Positions 46,022 through 53,299 of a DNA stretch of 64,000 nt are shown here, piece by piece. The number at the start of each line of letters is the position of its first letter. Positions within the stretch are counted from its first letter, which is position 1. This stretch comes from Geothrix limicola (GTDB taxonomy: Bacteria; Acidobacteriota; Holophagae; Holophagales; Holophagaceae). A program made the position numbers and the translations under genes. The notes beneath the pieces are model-generated. The model was not told where the DNA came from. It was given only the letters and a program-made list of their open reading frames with translations, and ran no database searches. The stretch covers positions 1 through 64,000 of the forward strand of contig NZ_BSDE01000010.1 of NCBI RefSeq assembly GCF_030268085.1. The letters are read 5' to 3'.

Positions 46022-46081
46022 GAATTCACGCCGAAGCTCCGGGAGAGGACTAGCATGGGGTCCGTTCCCAAGGAGACCGTC

Positions 46082-46663
46082 ATGGCCGCGAAACGCATCC
46101 TCATGCTCGTCGGTGACTTCGGAGAGGACTACGAAATCATGGTGCCCTTCCAGGCCCTGCTGGCCGTGGGCCACACGGTCCACGCCGCCTGCCCGGACAA
46201 GAAGGCCGGCGAATCCGTGGCCACGGCCATCCATGATTTCGAAGGCCACCAGACCTATTCCGAAAAGCCGGGCCACCGCTTCACGCTCAACGCCACCTTC
46301 GCCGACCTCAAGGCCGAAGACTACGACGCGCTGCTGATCCCCGGCGGGCGCGCACCCGAGTACCTCCGCCTCAATCCCAAGGTGCTTGAGTTCGTCCGCC
46401 ACTTCTTCACCGCGAAGAAGCCCGTGGCCGCCATCTGCCACGGCGCCCAGCTGCTCGCCGCCGCGGGCGTGCTGGAGGGGCGCACCTGCTCGGCCTATCC
46501 GGCCTGCCGTGCCGAGGTGGAAGTGGCCCGCGGGAAATACGCCGAGATCGCCATCGACGGCGCGGTCACCGATGGCAACCTCGTCACCGCGCCCGCCTGG
46601 CCCGCCCACCCGGCCTGGATCGCGCAGTTCCTCCAGGTGCTGGGCACCCGCATCACCCTCTGA
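46082..46663 (+). CDS. DJ-1/PfpI-family protein
   Basis: The 193-residue protein has the class I glutamine-amidotransferase-like fold with the nucleophile-elbow cysteine in [17 protein letters not shown] and the acidic residue in [11 protein letters not shown]. Members act as glyoxalases, chaperones, deglycases or proteases, and the sequence does not decide among these. AAGGAG upstream selects this ATG over one nine codons earlier. Confidence 0.85.
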
Positions 46664-46823: not shown

Positions 46824-47687
46824 ATGACGAACGTGTTCGCCTTCTCCAAATTCCAAACGCTCGGAAACGACTACATCGTGATCGATCCGTCGAAGACGGC
46901 CTTCGATCCGAACCCCAAGCTCGTCCAGGCCCTCTGCGACCGCCACCGCGGCATCGGCTCCGACGGCCTCATCCTGGGCCCCTTCCCCGTGCCCGGCGAT
47001 CCCGAGGCCTTCGGGCTGCGGGTCTTCAATCCCGATGGCAGCGAATCCAAGAAGAGCGGCAACGGGCTGCGCGTCTTCGCCCGCTACCTCCTGGAGGCGG
47101 GACACGTGAAGGGGTCGCGCTGCCGCATCCACGTCGCCGGAGGCTTCGCGGAGGTGAGCTACCTGACCGAAGACGGCAGCCGCATCCAGGTGGACATGGG
47201 CAGGCCGGATTTCCGGGCCGGCGAGATTCCCTACACGGGCATCCCCGCCCAGCAGGAGGTCCTGGAGGCCCTCCTCTTCTTTCCCACGGGGCCCATCACC
47301 ATCACGGCCCTCAGCATGGGCAACCCCCATTGCGTCATCTTCCCCGGCCAGGTCACGGCCGCAGAGGCCCAGCGGCTGGGCCCCCGTATCGAGCGCCACC
47401 CGGACTTCCCCAACCGCGTGAACGTCCAGCTGGTGGAAGTGGTCGACCGCAAGCGCATCCGCGTCGAGATCTGGGAGCTGGGGGCGGGCTACACCCTGGC
47501 TTCCGGCAGCAGCAGCTGCGCCGCGGCGGCGGCCTGCAAGCGCCTGGGCCTGGTGGAGGACCATCTGCAGGTGCTCATGCCCGGAGGCGCCATCGACATC
47601 GCCTTCACGAGCGAAGGCCGGATTCTCATGACCGGGCCCGTGCAGGCCGTCTACGAGGGCCGGCTGCGCACCGAGTGGATGCCCTGA
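46824..47687 (+). CDS. Diaminopimelate-epimerase-family protein with both catalytic Cys replaced by Ser
   Basis: The 287-residue protein aligns with DapF along its length: KFQTLGNDYIVID, DRHRGIGSDGLIL, FNPDGSESKKSGNGLRVFAR, SMGNPHCVIF and ELGAGYTLASGSSSCAAAAA. DapF uses two cysteines, in the motifs MCGNG and ACGTG, to move the alpha proton. Here these positions are Ser78 and Ser227. It might be a weak or altered epimerase, or a paralog for another substrate. No other lysine-pathway gene is adjacent. AGGA precedes the ATG. Confidence 0.85.
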   Translation: MTNVFAFSKFQTLGNDYIVIDPSKTAFDPNPKLVQALCDRHRGIGSDGLILGPFPVPGDPEAFGLRVFNPDGSESKKSGNGLRVFARYLLEAGHVKGSRCRIHVAGGFAEVSYLTEDGSRIQVDMGRPDFRAGEIPYTGIPAQQEVLEALLFFPTGPITITALSMGNPHCVIFPGQVTAAEAQRLGPRIERHPDFPNRVNVQLVEVVDRKRIRVEIWELGAGYTLASGSSSCAAAAACKRLGLVEDHLQVLMPGGAIDIAFTSEGRILMTGPVQAVYEGRLRTEWMP

Positions 47688-47701
47688 GAGATTGATTCTC
47701 C

Positions 47702-47730
47702 TTGGCAGTTCAATGGACTTGTCGGATACT
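47702..47730 (+). promoter_or_regulatory. Promoter of the SAM-riboswitch transcript
   Basis: TTGGCA and GATACT are 17 bases apart and lie just upstream of the riboswitch, fitting a sigma-70 promoter with transcription starting near 47737. Confidence 0.65.
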
Positions 47731-47762
47731 GATGCTTCAGTAGGATCTTTGTCAGTTTCATC

Positions 47763-47870
47763 ACGCGATATCCAGAAAGGTGGAGGGACGGGCCCTGTGA
47801 AACCTTGGCAACCTGCGAAAGCAAGGTGCCAATTCCTGCCGCAAGCGATTGCGGAGAGATGCTGACGTGT
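47763..47870 (+). ncRNA. SAM-I (S-box) riboswitch
   Basis: The conserved S-box core is present: ATCCAGAAAGGTGGAGGGAC, then GGCCCTGTGAAACC, GGCAACC, AAGGTGCCAATTCCTGC and a closing GGAGAGAT that pairs with ATC at 47770. P1 is somewhat irregular. It binds S-adenosylmethionine and, when bound, favours the terminator just downstream, switching off the methionine-synthesis gene at 47966. Confidence 0.95.
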
Positions 47871-47965: not shown

Positions 47966-49240
47966 GTGAGCGAGCAGTTTCTAGACACCAACGTGCCGGG
48001 CAATCCCGCCTACCACTTCACCATCCAGCCTCCCGTCCGGGAGGGCAAGGCGGGCTGGATCGACCGCCCGGAGCTGGTGCCCCACGCGGGCCGCGCCACC
48101 CAGTGCGTGCACGCGGGCGTCCAGCCCGATCCCGCCTACGGCGCCGTGATGCCGCCGCTCTACCTCTCCTCCACCTTCGCGTTCAAGGACATCTGCACCA
48201 ACGCGGGCTACGACTACACCCGCAGCGGCAATCCCACCCGCGCGGCGCTGGAGGAGGCCATCGCGCTGCTGGAAGGCGGCCAGGGCGCCACCTGCACCTC
48301 GACGGGCATGAGCGCCATCCTCGTGGCCCTCAACCTGCTGGAACACGGCAGCCACCTCATCTCCACGGTGGATTGCTACGGCGGCACCTTCCGCCTGCTG
48401 GAACACGCCAAGCGTTTCTACGGGCTGGAGGTCACCTATCTGGACCTCTCCGACCTGGAGGCCCTGAAGGCCGCCATCCGTCCCAACACGCGCATGATCT
48501 GGATCGAGACGCCCTCGAATCCGCTGCTGCGGCTGACCGATATCGCCGCCGTCGCCGAGATCGGCCACCGCCAGCCCGACTGCCTCGTGGCCGTCGACAA
48601 CACCTTCCTCTCGCCCTACCTCCAACGCCCCTTCGCCCTGGGCGCCGACCTCGTCATCCACTCCACGACGAAGTATCTCAACGGCCACAGCGACGTGGTG
48701 GGCGGGGCCGTCGTCGCGGGGCCGCACCGCCGGGCCCTCACCCAGCAGATCCAGAGCGTCAACAACCTGCTGGGCACGTCGCAGTCGCCCCACGACTGCT
48801 TCCTCGTCCTGCGCGGCTTGAAGACCCTGCCCCTCCGCATGCGCCAGCACGAGGCCAATGCCCAGGAGATCGCGGAGTTCCTGGCGGCCCATCCTGCCGT
48901 CGGCAAAGTGCACTTCCCGGGCCTGCCCGGCCATCCCCAGCACGAGCTTGCCAAGCGCCAGCAGGACGGCTTCGGCGCCATGCTCAGCTTCGAGCTGAAG
49001 GAAGGCGGCCAGGCGCGCGTGAACCACGTGCTCACGCGGCTGCGCTGGTTCACGCTGGCCGAAAGCTTGGGCGGCGTGGAATCCCTGGTGGCCCACCCGG
49101 CCTCCATGACCCACGCCTCCATGACGCCCGAAGCCCGCAAGAACGCGGGCATCAGCGACGACCTCATCCGCCTGTCCATCGGCCTGGAGGATGTGAAGGA
49201 CCTGCGCGCCGATCTGGCGCAGGCCCTGAGCTTCGCTTAG
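47966..49240 (+). CDS. metB: Cystathionine gamma-synthase-type Cys/Met metabolism PLP enzyme
   Basis: The 424-residue enzyme belongs to the trans-sulfuration PLP family, with YDYTRSGNPTRAALEEAIA, TVDCYGGTFRLLEH and the PLP lysine in IHSTTKYLNGHSDVVGG. It has about 45 extra N-terminal residues. It could use O-acetyl- or O-succinyl-homoserine with cysteine or sulfide, so the gene symbol is tentative. It starts at GTG with AGGAGG seven bases upstream and is controlled by the SAM-I riboswitch, which fixes its role in methionine supply. Confidence 0.9.
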   Translation: MSEQFLDTNVPGNPAYHFTIQPPVREGKAGWIDRPELVPHAGRATQCVHAGVQPDPAYGAVMPPLYLSSTFAFKDICTNAGYDYTRSGNPTRAALEEAIALLEGGQGATCTSTGMSAILVALNLLEHGSHLISTVDCYGGTFRLLEHAKRFYGLEVTYLDLSDLEALKAAIRPNTRMIWIETPSNPLLRLTDIAAVAEIGHRQPDCLVAVDNTFLSPYLQRPFALGADLVIHSTTKYLNGHSDVVGGAVVAGPHRRALTQQIQSVNNLLGTSQSPHDCFLVLRGLKTLPLRMRQHEANAQEIAEFLAAHPAVGKVHFPGLPGHPQHELAKRQQDGFGAMLSFELKEGGQARVNHVLTRLRWFTLAESLGGVESLVAHPASMTHASMTPEARKNAGISDDLIRLSIGLEDVKDLRADLAQALSFA

Positions 49241-49835: not shown

Positions 49836-50146
49836 TCTTGTCTGGCTCGGCAGTGGATCCATCGGACCAACTCACAGGGTGAGAAGCTCTCGATTCCCTG
49901 GTAACAGGCAATAAACAGGGAATCGAGGTAATTTTTGACCATCCTGAAGAGACCCGCATGGACTCAAAAACCCGACCAGCCTTGGTTTGGGCCTTCCTTC
50001 CGGGCTGAACCTCGTTCGAGTGGATCAGGGAATTGTTTGAGGCGGAACAGGGAACAAGATGCTCGAAACCGGGAACAGATCAAACCGTGACAGCCAGCCG
50101 ATCCCGGAGGCGGGGCATCGCCGACTCGCCAGGTCATGCTGTTGAG
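49836..50146. other. Gene-free stretch before the transposase
   Basis: Apart from the upstream extension of the transposase frame, I see no gene here. It probably contains the left end of the insertion sequence, but I could not define terminal inverted repeats by eye. Confidence 0.5.
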
Positions 50147-51196
50147 ATGCGTTGGCTTGCTCGTCTGCTTTTCATCAAGATGTGGCCATCCCCTGATGGA
50201 TTGAAGGCCCGAATCCAGACGCTGGAGCTGGAGAACCTGACCCTCCGGCATCAACTGGCCGTGCTCCAACGAACCGCCAAACGATCCAAGACCACCCGTT
50301 GGGACCGGGCCTTCTGGATCGGCCTGAGCCGTGTTTGGTCGGGCTGGAGGGAAGCCTGTCTCCTGGTGAAACCAGCGACGGTGGTGGGATGGCACCGTTC
50401 CGGGTTCCGCTTGTTCTGGCGCATCAAGTCGCGTCGGCGGAGCGGACGGCCGCACCTTGAACCAACGCTGCGCCGCTTGGTCATTCAGATGGCCTGGGAG
50501 AATCCGCTTTGGGGTGCCCCCCGCATCCATGGCGAACTGCTGAAGCTCGGGCTCAAAATCTCAGAGCGCAGCGTGGCGCGCTGGATGCCTCAAAGGCAAC
50601 CCGATCCCCGACGCGCCCAGAACTGGAAAGCCTTTCTCGAGAACCACCGCGACCTGATTTCGGCCATGGACTTCCTCGTGGTGCCGACTTGGAACTTCAG
50701 GCTGCTCTACGTCCTGATGATCCTGGACCACGGGCGGAGGATGATCCGGCACGTGAGCGTCACGGCCCATCCCACGGCGGAGTGGGTGCGGCAGCAGCTT
50801 CGTGATGCCTTCCCCTTTGACGATCTCCCGACCTACCTTCTGTTCGACCGGGACGCCATCTTCGGGGCCGCGCGCGCTTTCGTGCAGGCCTTGGGCATCA
50901 CTCCGAAACAAATCGGATTCCAGTCACCCTGGCAGAACGGGCATTGCGAGCGCGCCATTGGGACCCTTCGGCGCGACCTTCTGGATCACGTCGTAGTCCG
51001 GGACGAAGCGCATCTGACCCGCCTGCTCAAGGAATACACGCGCTACTACCACGAGGATCGCACCCATCTCGGGCTCAACAAGGATTCCCCACTGAGGCGT
51101 CCAAGTGAGATGAAACCCAATGAATCAGCCGGAATAGTGACTCTTCTGCGTTGCGGAGGGCTTCACCATCGCTACCGCTGGACGGACGCGGCCTGA
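50147..51196 (+). mobile_element. Intact DDE integrase-core transposase (IS3/IS481-like)
   Basis: The 349-residue protein has an N-terminal leucine-rich helix (KARIQTLELENLTLRHQLAV), an HTH-like middle (WGAPRIHGELLKLGLKISER) and an rve-type core. The catalytic acids are in ISAMDFLVVPTW, LLFDRDAIFGAA and NGHCERAIGTLRRDLLDH. It is a single frame without the frameshift of typical IS3 elements. The frame is open upstream to 50033, but the ATG at 50147 fits the family better. It opens the accessory patch that runs to tRNA-Asn. Confidence 0.85.
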
Positions 51197-51936: not shown

Positions 51937-52175
51937 CGAACACCCCCTTCACCCCTGGGGATCTTCGGGTTCTGACGGAGCGCCTGGAGGTATGACGTGA
52001 GCTTCAGGGCATCTGAGTTCGCGAGTCCGTAATTTGGGCAACGGACGTCAGCTCTCTGCTCTTGTGGCCCCTTCATCCATGCATAGAGCCAGCCTGGTTT
52101 CAGACGACGTCTCGTGGCGTTCAGCGACGGGCCGAAGTAACCACCCCTGCCATCCAAAATGTGACACGCGCGGCA
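51933..52175 (-). pseudogene. 3' fragment of a second cytochrome c gene
   Basis: Read on the minus strand from 52175, the frame begins with a heme motif CRACHILDGRGGYFGP. It continues into WLYAWMKGPQEQRADVRCPN and NSDALKLTSYLQALRQ, the usual tail of a c-type cytochrome. Upstream of the heme motif the sequence becomes IS5-type transposase on the other strand, so the 5' part and start have been lost. It was the first gene of a two-cytochrome unit. Confidence 0.8.
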
Positions 52176-53299
52176 AGGGGAAGGCCCACCGCCCCTATGA
52201 ATTCGGCGTGAAGGTGAGCCTAGCAGTCACCCACAAGGAGGGTTTCTGCGTGGGCATCCAGACCTGCCCCGGCAATCCCTTCGATGGACACACGCTGGAG
52301 GGACAACTCGACCAGGTGGAACGCCTCACCGGCAAGGTTCCCAACACCTCCTTCGTGGACAAGGGCTACCAGAGACACGGCGTGGATCCAGGCAGAAGCC
52401 GGGTCCTCATCAGCGGCACGCGCAAGCTCGGCTACCGTCGCGCCCTGGAGCTTGATCCCAACGATGCGAACAACACCAGCAACTTTGCGTTGTTCATGTA
52501 TAACGTCCGAAAAAATTACGAAGAAGGCGAGCGCCTCTACCGTCGCGCCCTGGAGCTTGACCCCAACGATGCGGACAACACTAGCAGCTTCGCGTCGTTC
52601 ATGAATGACGTCCGCAAGGACTACGACGAAGCCGAGCGCCTCTACCGTCGCGCCCTGGAGCTTGATCCCAACGATGCGGGCAACACCGGCAACTTCGCGG
52701 TGTTCATGAATAACGTCCGAAAAAACTACGACGAAGCCGAGCGCCTCTACCGTCGCGCCCTGGAGCTTGATCCCAACGAGGCGCACCACACCGGCAACCT
52801 CGCGTCGTTCATGAATGACGTCCGAAAGGACTACGACGAAGCCGAGCGCCTCTTCCACCGCGCCCTTGAACTCGATCCCAACGATGGGGACAACATCGCC
52901 AACTTCGCCTCCTTCGAACTCAGCAGAGGCAGAGATACCGAAGCCCGCGCTCTCGCCGTTCGCGCGTGGAATGGGGAGCGGTCCACCCCGCTGCAATGCC
53001 GAGCCGAGGCCGCACTCTACCTACTCCTTCTAGACCGCAAAGAATCTCGGCCGATCAAAGGCGGTTTGGCCAGACTGAAGGGCCTGATGGTCAGGGAGTT
53101 CGCTCGCGGCAATTGGTCCTTCGAATCCGCGTTCCAGGCCGTATTTCCCCATCTCCTGGAAAACGAGCCCCCCTTTTTTCGAGCCCTGGGTGAGGCGATC
53201 CTCGACGCGACCCTGGTACAAGCCCTGGATGCATTCCCCCTTTGGTCTGAAACCGAATCCAGCGATCCATCCCTGCCATGGCCTGATTCGGCCTCGTAG
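52034..53299 (+). CDS. Chimeric open frame: IS5-type transposase remnant fused to TPR repeats
   Basis: The 421-residue frame has three parts. The first 45 or so residues are antisense to the cytochrome remnant and are not real protein. Residues about 47-133 match the catalytic part of IS5/IS1182-type transposases (KGKAHRPYEFGVKVSLAVTH, PGNPFDGHTLEGQLDQVERL, VPNTSFVDKGYQ). From residue 134, five 35-residue TPR-like repeats follow, then a helical tail of about 115 residues. The join is in frame. Whether it is expressed is unknown; no convincing start or ribosome site was seen, and the TPR part may be a gene that lost its own start. Confidence 0.6.
   Translation: MGNGRQLSALVAPSSMHRASLVSDDVSWRSATGRSNHPCHPKCDTRGKGKAHRPYEFGVKVSLAVTHKEGFCVGIQTCPGNPFDGHTLEGQLDQVERLTGKVPNTSFVDKGYQRHGVDPGRSRVLISGTRKLGYRRALELDPNDANNTSNFALFMYNVRKNYEEGERLYRRALELDPNDADNTSSFASFMNDVRKDYDEAERLYRRALELDPNDAGNTGNFAVFMNNVRKNYDEAERLYRRALELDPNEAHHTGNLASFMNDVRKDYDEAERLFHRALELDPNDGDNIANFASFELSRGRDTEARALAVRAWNGERSTPLQCRAEAALYLLLLDRKESRPIKGGLARLKGLMVREFARGNWSFESAFQAVFPHLLENEPPFFRALGEAILDATLVQALDAFPLWSETESSDPSLPWPDSAS
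52172..52432 (+). mobile_element. IS5/IS1182-type transposase internal fragment
   Basis: About 87 codons encode KGKAHRPYEFGVKVSLAVTH through VDKGYQRHGVDPGRSRVLIS, the part of IS5-group transposases that holds one catalytic aspartate. Both ends of the transposase are missing: it abuts the cytochrome remnant on the left and TPR repeats on the right. Confidence 0.85.
52433..52957 (+). repeat. Five tandem 105-bp TPR-coding repeats
   Basis: Units start at 52433, 52538, 52643, 52748 and 52853. Each encodes a 35-residue motif close to YRRALELDPNDADNT plus FMNDVRKDYDEAER. The first four units are nearly identical at the DNA level, a sign of recent expansion or homogenisation; the fifth diverges in its second half. 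Confidence 0.92.

Follow-up and report, generated by a model that had tools for sequence, protein, structure and literature searches.

In a 64,000-nucleotide stretch of the Geothrix limicola genome (the whole stretch is referred to below as the window) we found a dapF-like gene whose 287-residue product has serine in place of both catalytic cysteines. Judging from sequence comparison, this protein is probably a member of a large class of natural diaminopimelate (DAP) epimerases with a Ser/Ser active site, which most likely still convert LL-DAP and meso-DAP into each other as part of the DAP/lysine pathway. We also lean towards the view that the class spans phyla, that its members would be fully active DAP epimerases which use two serines to invert the unactivated alpha carbon of an amino acid, and that it possibly has more than one origin. 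DapF, which is discussed as a target for antibacterials, serves as a standard model for racemases of the two-base thiol type. In crystallography, such enzymes are crippled by mutating cysteine to serine.

The open reading frame starts with ATG and is intact (Table 1). Its translation contains the motifs KKSGNGLR and LASGSSSC, and matches both DapF profiles above the curated cut-offs over essentially the full length: the NCBI DapF model TIGR00652 gives 228.5 bits (cut-off 114.65) for residues 6-282, and the Pfam DAP_epimerase profile PF01678 gives 175.4 bits (cut-off 34.7). PF01678 is the sole Pfam match, and by sequence the protein falls outside the proline racemase family. In the alignment, the solved DapF proteins carry cysteine where the window protein has Ser78 and Ser227; hence both catalytic cysteines are lacking, and the protein is not a canonical Cys/Cys DapF. 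The first-pass annotation had reported serines at both catalytic positions, and the reading of the frame, together with the alignment of relatives from the genus, bears this out. It had also described all surrounding motifs as kept, which does not hold, as the otherwise invariant WERGAG motif reads WELGAG here. This replacement of Arg219 by leucine is unique among the sequences sampled.

Table 1. The dapF-like gene of the window, its active-site codons and the adjacent features.
Feature	Coordinates	Strand	Basis
DJ-1/PfpI family gene, the usual upstream neighbour of Ser/Ser dapF in the genus	46055..46663	+	TIGR01382, 188.3 bits; synteny
dapF-like gene, Ser/Ser active site, 287 aa	46824..47687	+	ORF, PF01678, TIGR00652, AlphaFold model
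Ser78 codon, first catalytic Cys position, directly before helix 79-91	47055..47057	+	Alignments; helix from AlphaFold model
Leu219 codon; Arg (WERGAG) in all other sampled sequences	47478..47480	+	Alignments
Ser227 codon, second catalytic Cys position, directly before helix 228-240	47502..47504	+	Alignments; helix from AlphaFold model
Site of the M20 deacylase gene in four genus relatives (abuts or overlaps the dapF end); missing here	47688..47764	+	Comparison with L036:6778-7833
SAM riboswitch between dapF and the next gene	47765..47865	+	RF00162, 81 bits
Cys/Met metabolism PLP enzyme (cystathionine gamma-synthase type), downstream neighbour, outside the dapF unit	47966..49240	+	PF01053

The AlphaFold model of the window protein is confident throughout (mean pLDDT 95.3) and has the two-domain fold of DapF. 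Among solved structures, a cyanobacterial DapF with bound inhibitor (9mro; Z = 39.5, rmsd 1.8, 275 residues) matches best, and the fold is also common over the full length with the DapF of H. influenzae (1gqz; Z = 34.1). All of the best five solved relatives listed have the Cys/Cys pair. The Cys/Cys enzymes (9mro, 1gqz) and the Ser/Ser class have in common the fold, the DAP-contact residues and the gene context of lysA, dapL, dapA and dapB, whereas they differ in the replacement of both catalytic cysteines by serine. In HisR, DapF and their kin, two central helices bear the catalytic residues at their N-terminal ends (PMC11602996); in the model of the window protein each serine directly precedes a helix, a predicted placement that may be likened to the one in these enzymes.

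The serine pair could be an oddity of the genus only, a reading that we rejected as a wider search found Ser/Ser homologues in many phyla. The 231 distinct homologues aligned comprise 174 Ser/Ser, 55 Cys/Cys and 2 Cys/Ser proteins; because similarity to the Ser/Ser protein guided part of the sampling, the counts are no estimate of frequencies. Approximately 150 Ser/Ser homologues come from outside the genus and represent at least 10 phyla. In the scan of genome contigs they were observed in Verrucomicrobia, Spirochaetes, sulfate reducers and other deltaproteobacteria, Planctomycetes, Cyanobacteria, Lachnospiraceae and other Firmicutes, Nitrospira, Chloroflexi, Methylomirabilota, Rokubacteria and Dadabacteria. 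Another group of Ser/Ser proteins, in which the sequence around the active-site residues looks canonical (ISGNGLRC, ETLSSGSG), is common in Acidobacteriota. In a quick tree the Ser/Ser proteins form two well-supported groups and the label needs two changes, but the constraint to a single Ser/Ser group was not rejected (p-AU = 0.486); from these sequences, the class may have arisen more than once. Two DapF proteins of Acidobacteriota (L284 and L323; G052, G068) have a mixed Cys/Ser pair and are possible intermediates. A word search of the open-access literature found no description of a Ser/Ser DapF class, an absence that is weak evidence, and nothing usable on the cell-wall chemistry of Acidobacteria.

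Forty of the sampled genomes, namely 21 of the 36 from other phyla and 19 from Acidobacteriota, have the Ser/Ser protein as the only DapF-family match; many of the genomes are MAGs. No extra DapF copy was found in these 40 when they were searched with the divergent Cys/Cys protein described below, and DAP dehydrogenase (Ddh) scored above the cut-off in one of them and not in the other 39. The DNPR motif of MurE, which goes with the addition of meso-DAP, is present in 28 of the 30 Ser/Ser-only genomes checked, and LysA scored above the cut-off in 27 of 41 genomes. Three genomes (G428, G436, G448) possess true DapL and LysA, lack Ddh, and have a Ser/Ser protein as their sole DapF. Two Holophagaceae genomes from a single genus (G334, G357) contain only the Ser/Ser form and other genera of the family the Cys/Cys form, which would fit an ability of the two forms to replace each other.

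The gene context of the Ser/Ser relatives points in the same direction. A single open reading frame of a Chloroflexi MAG (L142:4642-6858) encodes an in-frame fusion of LysA with a Ser/Ser DapF, both halves scoring above the curated cut-offs. Ser/Ser dapF genes are also found in alr-dapF-M20D-lysA operons at the Spirochaetaceae loci, in a lysA-dapF-dapL array (L094) and in dapF-dapA-dapB arrays (L095, L139), with no single neighbour conserved upon clustering of 76 loci. The residues that we take, from the H. influenzae DapF structures, to be the DAP contacts (Asn15, Asn69, Asn80, Asn167, Asn200, Glu218 and Arg219) show about 100% conservation in the Ser/Ser groups outside Geothrix; the set is kept in the wider class, and the window protein deviates at Leu219.

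As the Ser/Ser protein is the sole DapF of 40 genomes, mostly without Ddh and with a DAP-type MurE, as its genes are fused or placed in operons with lysA, dapL and dapA-dapB, as the DAP contacts outside Geothrix are near-invariant, and as two Holophagaceae genomes of one genus carry only the Ser/Ser form where others carry Cys/Cys, a role of the class in the DAP pathway is probable. Both serine bases and a different reaction, such as elimination or dehydration, had been offered in the first-pass annotation; the family-level evidence favours the former, and the latter is not supported, since the DAP contacts are kept and the genes lie in DAP/lysine operons. Most likely, then, we infer that the reaction is DAP epimerisation with the serines as bases. 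The usual DapF residues would grip the DAP substrate. The part of the thiol/thiolate pair would fall to Ser78 and Ser227, each at the N-terminus of one of two helices that oppose each other: one serine, made reactive by its surroundings, would take the alpha proton, and the other would give one back on the opposite face.

In the genus Geothrix (Acidobacteriota) the Ser/Ser gene is present in 22 of the 47 genomes, with 23 orthologues. Both serines occur in all 23; conservation of the pair in relatives, which the first-pass annotation had proposed as a check, extends through the genus orthologues and to many phyla. The same observation refutes a sequencing error or mis-assembly that made Ser codons from Cys codons, to which we assign a negligible probability. 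There are two subtypes in the genus, one with SGNG and ASGSSS, to which the window protein belongs, and one with SGDG and ASGSS; most genus relatives have aspartate for Asn80. One genome (G044; L011 / L040) contains tandem Ser/Ser dapF paralogues, one of each subtype.

The locus is the same wherever the contig permits the check, with thiC/DJ-1 on one side and a gene of the cystathionine gamma-synthase type or an FKBP gene on the other. By synteny the window locus itself has no DAP/lysine pathway gene in its context, unlike the loci of several Ser/Ser relatives. A functional link of dapF with the downstream PLP enzyme is not favoured, because the SAM riboswitch separates the two genes. We likewise rejected the M20 gene as a constant partner of dapF, as among the genus genomes that gene is at the dapF locus only in G003, G016, G030 and G044, that is, in just 4 of the 22 with the Ser/Ser gene. 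Further along the window, an open reading frame (50033-51196, plus strand) downstream of an FKBP-type gene resembles an integrase or transposase, IS481-like by eye. Another (52034-53299, plus strand) contains repeats of 34 residues that are nearly identical to each other (RALELDPNDA...) and, by eye, resemble TPR repeats.

The genome of the window also contains, on another contig, a second DapF-family gene (L004:5132-5992, minus strand), which is divergent and retains both cysteines (FCSNG, CCGTG). Its product scores below the NCBI DapF cut-off, whereas the Ser/Ser protein of the same genome scores above it. The divergent Cys/Cys DapF was found in nearly all genomes of the genus and in other Holophagaceae; in the family it has CSNG in place of CGNG (G000:C3). 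The contig of this gene also carries a lysine-type cluster, in which dapB and an aminotransferase gene accompany a LysA-like gene, and an M20 gene lies close by. Thus, a second dapF with cysteines, one of the genes that the first-pass annotation had named for a search, is present, in a divergent form. Neither of the other two turned up: no DAP dehydrogenase was found in this genome, and LL-DAP aminotransferase (DapL) had no close match there at E up to 1e-60.

Since the genome also contains the Cys/Cys DapF, it has the Ser/Ser protein as an additional, dispensable copy. The window gene could then be a redundant duplicate heading for loss, with meso-DAP made by the Cys/Cys DapF, which we regard as possible though not probable, and which is compatible with an active class. 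The presence of the Cys/Cys DapF in this genome and across the genus fits such a fate, as do the failure to find the Ser/Ser copy in 25 of the 47 genus genomes, the R219L replacement and the missing M20 neighbour of the window copy, and dN/dS values against the window gene of 0.20-0.45, compared with about 0.06-0.24 for the neighbour genes. On the other hand, dN/dS is well below 1 and as low as 0.04 between the Ser/Ser dapF genes of G015 and G030, and the window gene has an intact frame, both serines, most of the contacts and a model that is confident throughout. By these sequence comparisons, Ser/Ser dapF in the genus is an accessory copy beside the divergent Cys/Cys DapF, and the selection on this accessory copy is weaker, yet still purifying. 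The earlier opinion that decay is unlikely therefore stands for the family and the genus, where dN/dS is below 1, and is less safe for the window copy, which has lost Arg219, lacks the M20 neighbour and is made redundant by the Cys/Cys DapF. With Arg219 gone, this copy may be weakened or re-specialised. For the same three reasons activity is less likely for it than for the class, and its own activity appears doubtful.

The other alternative concerns the class as a whole: the Ser/Ser proteins could keep the fold and the DAP site and perform no DAP epimerisation, having instead another reaction (racemisation of a different substrate, elimination) or a binding or regulatory role, with meso-DAP supplied by an unrelated enzyme. 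HisR and CntK (cofactor-independent histidine racemases), O-ureidoserine racemase and the Dab racemase PddB have a DapF-like fold and a two-base mechanism; HisR and PddB, unlike the Ser/Ser class, depend on Cys/Cys, and engineered replacement of Cys by Ser leaves them nearly inactive. For the PddB mutants the activity falls below 0.1%, a loss also cited for mutants of M. tuberculosis DapF (PMC8225329), and for HisR the turnover is greatly reduced (PMC11602996), all of which counts against serine epimerases. A PLP-type DAP epimerase, DapF2, of an unrelated alanine-racemase-like family, has been proposed for the same step in staphylococci and others (PMC9026213), so meso-DAP could come from an unrelated enzyme; an alr-like gene also forms part of the Spirochaetaceae operons. 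Cys/Cys and Ser/Ser copies also occur together in some genomes.

The proline racemase superfamily bears on both sides. According to PMC4113996, a natural Ser/Cys pair works in 4-hydroxyproline epimerase, and trans-3-hydroxyproline dehydratase has a Ser/Thr pair. Serine can therefore be catalytic in the scaffold, although the Ser/Thr member is a dehydratase, as a class without epimerisation might be. These Ser/Cys and Ser/Thr enzymes share with the window protein the fold class (Z about 27-28) and a natural catalytic serine; the superfamily enzymes act on other substrates, have 10-16% identity and, in the passages of that source consulted, no Ser/Ser pair. Against the absence of epimerisation stand the Ser/Ser protein as the sole DapF-family member of 40 genomes, mostly with a DAP-type MurE and no Ddh, the fusion and the operons with lysA, dapL, dapA and dapB, and the nearly invariant DAP contacts. 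We consider this alternative unlikely and prefer DAP epimerisation by the Ser/Ser class.

If this preferred reading is true, cysteine would not be required for DAP epimerase chemistry, and thiol-directed inhibitors would miss bacteria with a Ser/Ser DapF. If many bacteria run the essential DAP step with Ser/Ser, the accepted reason for cysteine would be incomplete. If, conversely, the class is inactive, its bacteria must hold an undiscovered DAP epimerase. Active or inactive, the Ser/Ser class would be new either way.
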